Notes under the pieces: model-generated
Told to the model about the DNA's origin: nothing
Seen by the model: only the letters and a program-made list of their open reading frames with translations
The model's database searches: none
Assembly: GCA_018401705.1 (NCBI GenBank)
Contig: JAGYKL010000004.1
Coordinates: forward strand, 1-37,809
Source of the DNA: Bacteroidia bacterium
GTDB taxonomy: Bacteria; Bacteroidota; Bacteroidia; M30B66
Reading direction: 5' to 3'
Length of the DNA: 37,809 nt
Made by a program: the position numbers and the translations under genes
In this document: one piece after another, positions 4,351 to 8,700 of the stretch
Layout: each line of letters starts with the position of its first letter
Position numbering within the stretch: the stretch's first letter is position 1

Positions 4351-4423
<73 letters not shown>

Positions 4424-4425
4424 CT

Positions 4426-4632: not shown

Positions 4633-7600
4633 TTATCTAACTACCTTAAACGTTCTTGAGAAGCCTTTTGAATCTTTCAGGTGAATCAAATAGATTCCTT
4701 GAGTGTCTGATGGATAGCCAATAATTTCATCGTTATTGCTGATCTTCCCAGCTGCAAGCAAGCTACCTCGTAAATCGAACACTGAATAGTCGAGTTCGTC
4801 ATTCAGCAAACTACTTACTAGCCATCCTCTTGAAGTATTGCTTGTATAGATATTTTTCATTGAGGTAATTGCAGAGATAGTAACCGTAGATACAACAAAG
4901 GGCTCTGAAAGCTCAGAACATCCGAATTCATCTTCGATACGAGCAATGTATGAGCCTGTTGCAGTAATTAAAAGTGTGTCATTTAGCTCATCTTCAAGCA
5001 GTTCACCATCGAGATACCAATTAATCATTCCTTGTGGGTTTCCTGCCAATATTAATTCTCCTCCAGAAAGTTCAATAACAGGCTGCTCTGGATTAGGATG
5101 AACGGTAACCAAAACTGTATCTGTATCAATACAATTGTTTTCGTTACTCACTGTAAGAACGTATTCTGTTGTGGTGGTTGCATCACTAAACGGAGTAGGT
5201 GAAAAGGGATTAGAAAGTCCATCAACAGGCAGCCAACTAGGGTTTTCATTACTTGCGTCTCCAAGAATTCCGGTTTGAGATAAGCATAAATCTAAATCTG
5301 CTCCTGCAATTGCAATTGGGTTTGTATTAACGGTAACTGTTACAGAGTCGATAGTAGAGCAACCTCCCTCGTTTGTTACTGTTAAAACGTATGTAGTTGT
5401 AGAAACCGGGCTTGCATCTGTTATAGCACTTTGTGGGTCAGATAAACCAGTTGAGGGAGTCCAATTTGCATTTTGATTAAACTCATCGCCTATGCTAATT
5501 GTAAGGCCTTGGCAAATGCTTGTGTCTTCTCCCGCTGAGGCAATAGGGGGTGCCAAAACAGTCACCGTAACGCTGTCGGTTGATGAGCAACCTACATCAT
5601 TTTGAGTTGTTAAGATATATGTTGTAGTTTCGGATGGACTTGCTTCAGGTTCGGCACTTTGAGCATTGTCTAAGCCAGTTTCTGGAAACCATGTAGCATT
5701 TTCGTTTGATGCATTTCCAATGGAGATTGCATCACCTTGACAAATAGTTAAATCAATACCTGCATTAACCGTTGGTGCTTCCGAAATGGCCAAATTGGTA
5801 TTAGCACTTACAGTTAGTGGATTTGCACAAGTCAAGCTTGAGCTTATTTGAACTTCAACATTAGCAGGCACAGATAAAGTATCAAGAACAAACATTGGTG
5901 AGCTGGTATTAATTGGATTACCGTTGATAGTCCAAGAAAATTGGGCATTTGCTCCTAAGCCGGTTCCTGATGCAGCAAGCAAAATTGGTTCTCCGCCGCA
6001 AGCGGCAGGAGGATTTGCTAGAAGACTTGCAACTGGTGTAATTCCTGATTGAATTCTAATATCATAACCATTGTCAGGAGCAGTTAGCATAGGCGATTCG
6101 CATACAACTCTAATGCGATATCCGGTGCCATTTAGTCCGCCCGGGAGTTGACAAGTAATAATGTTTGATGGGCTGATGTTGGGGTTAACCAGCGTGTAAG
6201 AGCCGATGTTTTGGGGATTATCGAAACTTCCGTTGGCATCACTAAGCTGAGCGATAATGACTTCGTTATTGTATAGTAAGCCAGTTGCCAGGTAACCAAC
6301 AAAAATTCTTGAGCCTGAGCAGAAGATACTGTCTTGCAAGTAAGTTTTGGATAGGGAGTCGGGAGCCAAGGTATGAAAGACATTGCTAATTCCACCTGAA
6401 CAATAGCCATAGGTTTTTTCGTTTTGATAAACTATTTCTATCGCATCAACACCGCCATTATTAGCCAGGCAATAAGTTGATTGACTTCCTATTTGGAAAC
6501 CTCCGTTTAGAGTAAATGATTGACTATTTAATCTGGCAAAATAGCCAACTGTATCGTTGATGAATTCCATTTCATCAATTTCTGCATTTGTGTTTGAAGT
6601 TGGAAAAATCCCTTCCCAGGCCTCACCGCCGTTGTTAGTCCAATAGAACTTTCCAAATGTGCCAGCTGCATAAGCCAGCGAGTCGCTCGCTACCCAAACA
6701 TCGTTAAATGAAGTATTTACATTAACATCAGTATTTTTAAGCTCCCAAGTTGCCCCTCCATCGAGGGTTCTGAATATTTTGTTTCCTCCAACTGCCATTC
6801 CAAATTGTGAATTGAGGAAATGAATTCCATCGAGGTATTCGTCGCTACCAACATTTTGGACTTCCCAGTTTAGACCGGCATCGCTGGTTTTGATTACTGT
6901 TCCATTTCCACCGCTTGCATAAGCGTGATTTGCATCAGGGGCGCAAAGATCGGTTAGGAATTCAGTTGTGCCACTTTCTATCGACTGCCATGTAAATCCG
7001 GCGTCAGTTGAGCGAATGATGCTGCCTGCTTCACCACAAGCAAGCACTATATTATCATCGAGCCATTTAACAGATGAATGGAACTTATCTGTACCAGAAG
7101 AAATTCTTTTATGGGTTAATCCGCTGTTTTTTGATCTATAAATATTTCCGCTAGTGCCGACCATAAGTCCAATTTCTGGTGTTTTATATGCAATGCCATA
7201 TTGTCTGCCAATACCTGAGACTTTATTGTCCCATGAATTACCGCCATTATCAGTGAATGCAATTCGACCTCTATCGCCGCCAACGTATCCATGTTCTTCA
7301 TCGAGAAAGAAACCACAGCTAACAGTTTCATTGAGGTCAGAGGGTATCTGTTGCCACGTTTCACCGCCATCGTCGGTCCTAAGAATTAGATTTAAATCTC
7401 CGAAAATATATCCTGTATTGGCGTTTACCCAATGCATTCTCAGCCAGATTTGACCTTCTTCGGCATCGTAAGAAGTCCACGAGTTTCCTCCGTTAATAGT
7501 TTTAAGAAGTTTATTGCTTGACATAGCATAGCCAATTTGTTCATCAGCAAACCAAACCTCTTTTAAGAAATCACTTCCACTGTAAACACTTTGAAAAGAG

Positions 7601-8172
7601 CCACCACCATTTGTAGTTCTAAAAAGTGCACCACTGTTTCCAACATAAAAACCTAAGTTTTGATTCACAAACCAGACATCTCTCAAAGTGATTGAGCCAG
7701 ATTGTATTGTAGTCCAAAACGCACCGCCATTTGTAGATTTTCTTACAATGCCATTTTGACCAACCACAAATCCTACTTGCGGGGTAGGGAAGTGAATGCT
7801 GTTGTAGCCAGCGCCAACGCCTGATGTTTGAGTAACCCAGGTTTGACCACCGTCAGTTGTTTTTAGCACTGTGCTTGAATTTCCAACTGCCCAGCCTGTA
7901 AATGCATCAACGAAATGAAGTCTGTACATAGCAGCGGTGCTACCTGTATTCATCCGAATCCATGTTTCTCCACCGTCTATTGTTCTAAGAATTGAATTAG
8001 TTCCAGAACAATTTCCAATGCCTGCTGATACTCCGCAAGCATATCCAGTGAGGCGATCTGCAAAGAATATATCACTGATATTGCTATTGTACGTATTGGC
8101 GCAACGCCACTGGGCAAAAGCCTGGCTTATTGGTACTATCAGAAGCAGCGTGAAAATAATATGACGAATCAT
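4633..8172 (-). CDS. Large secreted beta-propeller (BNR/YCF48-like) protein with Ig-like modules and T9SS-type C-terminus
   Basis: This 1179-residue exported protein has a clear signal peptide (MIRHIIFTLLLIVPISQAFAQ). Residues of about 25-570 are a long series of YCF48/BNR-type blades of roughly 40 residues, each with a Gly-Gly-x-x-W core such as TTDGGQTWVTQ, KSTNGGAFWTT and RTLDGGATWELK. Enough blades are present for about two propellers. After an uncharacterised beta-rich stretch, three near-identical modules of about 75-79 residues follow from around 797, 877 and 953, each with a DxxxCQG-type start and a CSxxDSVTVTV-type end (the third more divergent). The last 75 residues resemble a T9SS type A sorting domain (YSVFDLRGSLLAAG, GIYLIHLKDSKG, FKVVR), but the usual YPNP box is replaced by YTSN. 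Secretion via T9SS is likely; the function is unknown. Confidence 0.92.
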   Translation of the reverse strand: MIRHIIFTLLLIVPISQAFAQWRCANTYNSNISDIFFADRLTGYACGVSAGIGNCSGTNSILRTIDGGETWIRMNTGSTAAMYRLHFVDAFTGWAVGNSSTVLKTTDGGQTWVTQTSGVGAGYNSIHFPTPQVGFVVGQNGIVRKSTNGGAFWTTIQSGSITLRDVWFVNQNLGFYVGNSGALFRTTNGGGSFQSVYSGSDFLKEVWFADEQIGYAMSSNKLLKTINGGNSWTSYDAEEGQIWLRMHWVNANTGYIFGDLNLILRTDDGGETWQQIPSDLNETVSCGFFLDEEHGYVGGDRGRIAFTDNGGNSWDNKVSGIGRQYGIAYKTPEIGLMVGTSGNIYRSKNSGLTHKRISSGTDKFHSSVKWLDDNIVLACGEAGSIIRSTDAGFTWQSIESGTTEFLTDLCAPDANHAYASGGNGTVIKTSDAGLNWEVQNVGSDEYLDGIHFLNSQFGMAVGGNKIFRTLDGGATWELKNTDVNVNTSFNDVWVASDSLAYAAGTFGKFYWTNNGGEAWEGIFPTSNTNAEIDEMEFINDTVGYFARLNSQSFTLNGGFQIGSQSTYCLANNGGVDAIEIVYQNEKTYGYCSGGISNVFHTLAPDSLSKTYLQDSIFCSGSRIFVGYLATGLLYNNEVIIAQLSDANGSFDNPQNIGSYTLVNPNISPSNIITCQLPGGLNGTGYRIRVVCESPMLTAPDNGYDIRIQSGITPVASLLANPPAACGGEPILLAASGTGLGANAQFSWTINGNPINTSSPMFVLDTLSVPANVEVQISSSLTCANPLTVSANTNLAISEAPTVNAGIDLTICQGDAISIGNASNENATWFPETGLDNAQSAEPEASPSETTTYILTTQNDVGCSSTDSVTVTVLAPPIASAGEDTSICQGLTISIGDEFNQNANWTPSTGLSDPQSAITDASPVSTTTYVLTVTNEGGCSTIDSVTVTVNTNPIAIAGADLDLCLSQTGILGDASNENPSWLPVDGLSNPFSPTPFSDATTTTEYVLTVSNENNCIDTDTVLVTVHPNPEQPVIELSGGELILAGNPQGMINWYLDGELLEDELNDTLLITATGSYIARIEDEFGCSELSEPFVVSTVTISAITSMKNIYTSNTSRGWLVSSLLNDELDYSVFDLRGSLLAAGKISNNDEIIGYPSDTQGIYLIHLKDSKGFSRTFKVVR

Positions 8173-8321: not shown

Positions 8322-8613
8322 GAGAAAGATAGAATAACAGAAATCAGTTTGCTAATCCTCGCTTTCGCTCTGCTGTACATTAAAATGAGAGAGAAAGAGA
8401 GGGTGAATGAAGAAAAATCAGAGAAATAATCTTCTTTCTCGCTCCGGTATTCTTTATAAAGAGTGAGAATCAGAAAGAGAATGAAGAAAATCAGAGAAAT
8501 AATCCTCGCTTTCGCTCTGATATTCATTAGAGAGAGTGAGAATCAGAAGGAGAATGAAGAAAAAAATCAGAGAAATAATCCTCGCTTTCGCTCTGATTCT
8601 CTCTCTGATTTTT
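8322..8613 (-). repeat. About four tandem copies of a 73-bp unit derived from the tRNA-Leu terminator region
   Basis: Equivalent positions recur every 73-76 bases: AATCCTCG-like words start at 8354, 8428, 8501 and 8577, and ATGAAG at 8407, 8481 and 8554. Read on the minus strand, each unit has the form ATCAGAG, CGAAAGCGAGGATTATTT, CTCTGAT, T-rich tail. The two units nearest tRNA-Leu keep both arms (8490-8496 with 8515-8521; 8566-8572 with 8591-8597), while the outer two have decayed arms. The unit length is not a multiple of three, and the short frames running through it are repeat artefacts. Bases 8173-8321 upstream show nothing beyond AT-rich partial palindromes and the 5' flank of the preceding gene. 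Confidence 0.85.
8562..8613 (-). terminator. Terminator of tRNA-Leu
   Basis: A perfect 12-bp inverted repeat, AAAAATCAGAGA (8562-8573) with TCTCTGATTTTT (8602-8613), lies immediately 3' of tRNA-Leu on the minus strand and ends in a T run. An alternative shorter stem uses 8591-8597. It forms the first of the tandem repeat units. Confidence 0.7.
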
Positions 8614-8615
8614 AG

Positions 8616-8700
8616 TGCCCGGGGCGGGAATCGAACCCGCACGACCGCAATGGTCACAGGATTTTAAGTCCTGCGTGTCTACCAGTTCCACCACCCGGGC
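8616..8700 (-). tRNA. tRNA-Leu (anticodon TAA)
   Basis: A type II cloverleaf of 85 bases. The acceptor GCCCGGG pairs with CCCGGGC, with A as discriminator (complement of 8616). The anticodon stem CAGGA/TCCTG encloses loop CTTAAAA with anticodon TAA (complement of 8664-8666). The long variable arm TGACC-ATTGC-GGTCG and the T arm GCGGG-TTCGATT-CCCGC confirm a leucine tRNA. CCA is not encoded. Confidence 0.97.

Follow-up and report, generated by a model that had tools for sequence, protein, structure and literature searches.

The tandem array directly behind the tRNA-Leu(UAA) gene in the 37,809-nucleotide stretch of Bacteroidia bacterium DNA analysed here (the window; contig JAGYKL010000004.1 of assembly GCA_018401705.1) is, in our judgement, likely to be a tandem, S23-less form of a hairpin module, designated E, of a family of small elements at Bacteroidota tRNA 3' ends. 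Across Bacteroidota the typical start of E is 0–2 nt downstream of a tRNA gene, which can be of many types, and a gene from one branch of the S23 family (PF05635) often comes next. The recurrence of E and S23 at tRNA ends suggests, at the level of sequence comparison, that these small elements form a family not described before.

The array starts at the 3' end of tRNA-Leu(UAA) (8615–8700, minus strand; ARAGORN and Rfam) and comprises 3.3–4 units of about 73 bp. Tandem Repeats Finder reports it as a single array at 8353–8597 (period 73, 3.3 copies, 81% matches, score 325), by a wide margin the strongest tandem repeat of the window. Read on the tRNA strand the units start at 8597, 8521, 8448 and 8374 and, in the tandem-repeat register, occupy 8522–8597 (unit 1), 8449–8521 (unit 2), 8375–8448 (unit 3) and 8336–8374 (unit 4), the last recognisable in its first half alone. 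The duplicated stretch runs from near the hairpin tip through the 3' arm, a T-run and a pyrimidine-rich tail. The short arms read ATCAGAG/CTCTGAT in units 1 and 2, ACCGGAG/CTCTGAT in unit 3, where the 5' arm has decayed, and AGCAGAG/AACTGAT in unit 4, where both arms have decayed (repeat family D2), in agreement with a preliminary description of this DNA, which gave perfect arms for the two units nearest the tRNA and the loss of one or both arms for the outer two. That description had also proposed tandem duplication from the 3' side of the tRNA gene with decay at increasing distance from it; the former is borne out by Tandem Repeats Finder and unit alignment, and the latter, for four units in one genome, by pairwise identities of 94.5% (units 1 and 2), 78.4% (units 1 and 3), 76.7% (units 2 and 3) and 56–60% (unit 4 with any other). 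This gradient suggests that the youngest copies lie nearest the tRNA gene and fits growth at the tRNA-proximal end, but selection on a working terminator would yield a similar gradient, and four units are too few to tell the two apart. The only other genome of the genus, which is 73% complete, gave no match at its tRNA-Leu(UAA) locus. Next downstream of the array, outside the element and on the same strand, lies a gene for a BNR-repeat/Ig-like protein (4633–8172). The window also carries tRNA-Gly(GCC) at 4351–4424, 4.2 kb from tRNA-Leu(UAA) and on the opposite strand; in many relatives the two lie close together on one strand, and the arrangement seen here is presumably a local rearrangement in the window's lineage.

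E starts 2 nt behind tRNA-Leu(UAA), and its complete form, which consists of unit 1 with an outer 5' arm and the T-run, spans 8550–8613 (minus strand). Here the outer 5' arm AAAAATCAGAGAGAGAATC (8595–8613) faces the 3' arm GATTATTTCTCTGATTTTT (8562–8580), to which it is 89% complementary (inverted repeat I4), across the conserved tip GAGCGAAAGCGA (8582–8593), which is near-invariant in 69 relatives. The predicted folding energy is −22.5 kcal/mol, the stem is followed at once by 7 T, and the whole lies directly behind a gene, so that unit 1 looks like an intrinsic terminator; its role as the probable terminator of tRNA-Leu(UAA) is well supported. A simple terminator consensus scan found none on the tRNA strand, missing unit 1 because it allows loops of 3–8 only. 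The preliminary description had rightly pointed to a terminator-like hairpin directly behind the tRNA gene, but drew its arms too short and overlooked AAAAATCAGAGAGAGAATC. This arm occurs once only: the duplication starts near the tip, and units 2–4, taken alone, therefore do not make full stem-and-T-run terminators. Folding each unit on the minus strand, as had been proposed, accordingly gives a strong hairpin for unit 1 with its outer arm, whereas the 48-nt cores of all four units without that arm reach only −7 to −9 kcal/mol. With the complete hairpin confined to unit 1, the idea that all units serve as redundant stops is not supported, such a role for units 2–4 being only weakly indicated. 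Several relatives that lack E carry an unrelated hairpin-plus-T directly behind tRNA-Leu(TAA), and where E is present it would take over tRNA termination.

That E is conserved as an RNA structure can be seen from its covariation. Among 67 distinct sequences 98.3% of cells are paired, 11 of the 13 pairs show double-sided change, and 83 cells carry changes on both sides as compared to 15 after shuffling and 8–15 with the partner slid; the alignment was fitted to a covariance model, which favours pairing, and the slid controls keep relatedness. G.U pairs exceed A.C by 25:3, which places the fold on the tRNA-sense strand, as would be expected for an RNA. The tip GCGARAGC is near-invariant, and the tip GAGCGARAGCGA can form a GNRA-capped mini-helix; a search of the window's genome with the tip pattern returned matches mostly without a hairpin. 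The covariance model was built from 18 hairpins with T-runs of 3–9, the window's unit 1 among them, and the 75.8 bits of unit 1 (match 8550–8612) are therefore partly by construction; units 2 and 3 match weakly. In the same genome two copies outside the model set score 61.1 bits (C89:114374) and 42 bits (C1:104112). Rfam, loose thresholds included, returned the tRNA and only weak, sub-cut-off matches of the microRNA-like long-hairpin kind.

The C89:114374 copy adjoins the 3' end of tRNA-Leu(CAA) and begins a second array, of 2.4 copies of 72 bp that are 97% alike, in which later copies lack the outer 5' arm as they do in the window. The two arrays align with a score of 53 (shuffled mean 2.2, sd 7) and are homologous, thus one genome holds two related arrays behind two leucine tRNAs. 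Neither contains an S23 remnant or a tRNA-end copy, so that descent from a complete element is argued by hairpin homology only. The C1 copy (104112–104159; locus L109 of genome G000) is a short E-like hairpin without a tRNA, between two convergent genes and placed as a shared terminator would be. In relatives, arrays of 3 × 168 bp and 9 × 61 bp lie behind tRNA-Leu genes and, together with the second array in the window's genome, they agree with the earlier suggestion that the locus is prone to length variation, here seen for the family. In one such relative (L128, G117:C9, reversed locus 1554–2105) only the pyrimidine-rich tail is amplified, in about nine copies of 61 bp behind tRNA-Leu(TAA). 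In Fluviicola chungangensis contig 9, two related elements (L197 and L198) are separated by 7.7 kb, one behind tRNA-Leu(GAG) and the other behind tRNA-Leu(CAG); their hairpin is a different one and their tail of the same kind. Beyond the tRNA-Leu(CAG) element come a GAG-type tRNA end and a further S23 gene.

The distribution of E is patchy, with 23 of 198 genomes of the class carrying it and 2 of 296 in a phylum-wide draw, the window's own included; the model search of these 296 added no new genome. The tie to tRNA 3' ends is strong: E starts 0–4 nt behind an intact tRNA at 20 of the 33 fetched places and at 28 of the 60 from the S23 set. When the window's tRNA plus array served as query, relatives turned out to have hairpins of this kind downstream of other tRNA-Leu genes, and the start of an S23-type gene (ATGTTTGATTTCGAAAAACT...) was matched as well in some of these genomes. 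Searches with PF05635 and with the closest S23 protein returned loci ordered tRNA, hairpin, S23 gene, second hairpin. The protein is named 23S rRNA-intervening sequence protein or four helix bundle protein in Pfam/NCBIfam, and has distant relatives of solved structure (2gsc, 2rld). Proteins of the S23 type are common in Bacteroidota, occurring in 35 of 40 relatives searched.

In genome contigs a scan based on an S23 alignment yielded 519 relatives, and the analysis took up the best 80 of them. By title nearly all of these 80 are Bacteroidota or metagenome-assembled genomes of that kind, the exceptions being Actinomyces viscosus (metagenome-assembled) and Glaciecola amylolytica. At 40 of the 80 a tRNA on the same strand lies no more than 700 nt upstream, as compared to control counts of 1 (upstream, opposite strand), 0 (downstream, same strand) and 0 (downstream, opposite strand), and E matches near S23 genes share the strand of the S23 gene in 60 of 62 cases. 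The 40 linked loci comprise Leu(CAA) (15), Leu(TAA) (8), Arg(CCG) (5), Leu(GAG) (3), Leu(CAG) (2) and seven other tRNAs once each. Among general PF05635 loci one of 29 has a tRNA close upstream (L050, G015:C18), where tRNA-Cys and the gene are separated by about 100 nt that contain a short AGGAGACAGGGA-type repeat and no E. In the S23 tree an SH-aLRT support of 94 sets the tRNA-linked genes off from the general ones, of which one very long-branched sequence joins at their base, and a single supported branch spans tRNA-Glu, tRNA-Met, tRNA-Leu(CAG) and tRNA-Leu(CAA). The tRNA-Leu(CAA)-linked gene from the record titled Glaciecola amylolytica (L172, CP034120.1), a gammaproteobacterium, groups with Bacteroidota, which would reflect either transfer or a mislabelled record. 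A plasmid search gave one distant match (39.5% identity, Nostoc) and a phage search gave none. General PF05635 genes (L064, L065, L067, L068, L073 and L074) often have short tandem repeats upstream, for instance GTTGAAA and TTGATAA, which recall the heptamer repeats before the S23 open reading frame of the Coxiella intervening sequence (PMC4990558).

Several of the tRNA-linked loci bear signs of insertion. A copy of the tRNA 3' end lies downstream at seven of the 40 with p = 0.005, the floor of the shuffle test and with 0.2 expected, and at an eighth with p = 0.02; at the other 32 no such copy was detectable. Four elements bounded by tRNA-end copies measure 576–634 bp, S23 gene included. Where E occurs without an intact tRNA, it is preceded by tRNA-3'-end-like sequence above nearby controls (p = 1.7e-7), for instance by the end of a tRNA-Glu in Mucilaginibacter flavidus (L152). 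In Fluviicola, the hairpins that follow some of the tRNA-end copies were considered as original tRNA terminators; judged by their sequences they may be a hairpin variant peculiar to that lineage, which leaves G045 (L083) as the one example of a tRNA-end-like copy followed by a plain terminator. The copies, the bounded elements and the varied tRNA hosts fit insertion at tRNA 3' ends, mobility being the putative cause of the copies, and we know of no recombinase or transposase of the E family.

Loci of the family typically begin with the 3' end of the tRNA, which E follows immediately; then come a pyrimidine-rich tail and the gene for an S23-type four-helix-bundle protein, and often a second E, a tRNA 3'-end copy or both. 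E folds on the tRNA-sense RNA and would stop transcription in vivo, so that an inserted element would supply the terminator and leave the tRNA intact; the S23 protein may bind E. In the window the S23 gene is absent, and the stretch that was multiplied stepwise reaches from the hairpin tip across the T-run to the tail. We regard as tentative, and perhaps mistaken, the further proposal that these are minimal mobile elements, comprising a hairpin and an S23 gene in about 0.6 kb, which enter the genome at tRNA 3' ends and swap in their own terminator, with S23 in the moving machinery and the window array as a solo, tandemly amplified form.

The window array by itself, a genuine tandem repeat with a terminator-like hairpin and T-run and with neither S23 gene nor tRNA-end copy, could also be an ordinary tRNA terminator multiplied into redundant stops by slippage or unequal crossing-over, a process of which some form must in any case underlie the duplication. 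The likeness between loci would then reflect a shared terminator style, yet many relatives have unrelated terminators at the same tRNA, units 2–4 lack the full hairpin, and the fixed link to S23 genes, together with a tip that hardly varies and a tail that recurs in many genera, makes this explanation improbable. Rather less probable still is a regulatory or processing element of tRNA transcripts, inherited in place and non-mobile, that serves for example as an S23 site for self-control or in tRNA 3' processing. The strong RNA-level covariation, the tRNA-sense strand and the constant order tRNA–E–S23 would suit such an element; the patchy occurrence of E, the many different tRNA hosts of one S23 branch, the elements flanked by tRNA-end copies and the solo E between convergent genes would not. 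Solo E copies without tRNA or S23, and the stable tip GCGAAAGC, recall REP/MITE-like hairpin repeats, which a transposase acting in trans would mobilise as single-stranded DNA, with the S23 link secondary, but given the strong tie to tRNA 3' ends and the constant orientation we consider this very improbable.

The S23-less form of E that we favour for the array shares features with several known systems. Like intrinsic terminators it has a stem and then a T-run directly behind a gene, although the near-invariant loop sequence and the S23 association across genera are unexpected of plain ones. The rtT repeats behind E. coli tyrT are likewise tandem repeats directly behind a tRNA gene, but each of their units includes part of the tRNA 3' end, which the window units lack, and Rfam gave no rtT match to the array. 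Some integrative elements, among them phages and genomic islands, take the 3' end of a tRNA gene as their attachment site, and several E loci similarly have a whole tRNA at one end and a tRNA 3'-end copy at the other, found in the seven homologous loci above (p = 0.005) and not in the window. E elements differ in their size of about 0.6 kb, which holds a single S23 gene and leaves no space for an integrase, the bounded ones being too short for any known integrase. The intervening sequences of 23S rRNA genes are likewise short elements of selfish appearance in the transcription unit of a stable RNA, with an S23-family open reading frame, a strong hairpin, short repeats of variable number before the reading frame and a patchy distribution. 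The one of Coxiella burnetii measures 428 nt, lies in 23S rRNA, contains an S23 open reading frame and is excised by RNase III; its heptamer repeats vary in number between strains, and the function of the S23-type protein is called unknown (PMC4990558). Intervening sequences lie inside rRNA and are cut out by RNase III, whereas the E family lies behind tRNA genes, in the window 2 nt behind tRNA-Leu(UAA); their hairpin is formed by paired element ends, whereas E is a local module with a T-run. An S23-type open reading frame, present inside some intervening sequences only, is found in homologous E loci and not in the window array. In the open-access literature, with most subscription journals outside the search and the negative therefore weak evidence of novelty, we found papers on intervening sequences and nothing on S23 genes or E hairpins at tRNA genes.

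For annotation, the E family accounts for repeats downstream of tRNA genes that might be mistaken for plain terminators. The constant hairpin partner of S23 and its constant place at tRNA ends offer a testable handle on S23 and E, and would tie intervening sequences to a wider class of elements hiding in stable-RNA genes.
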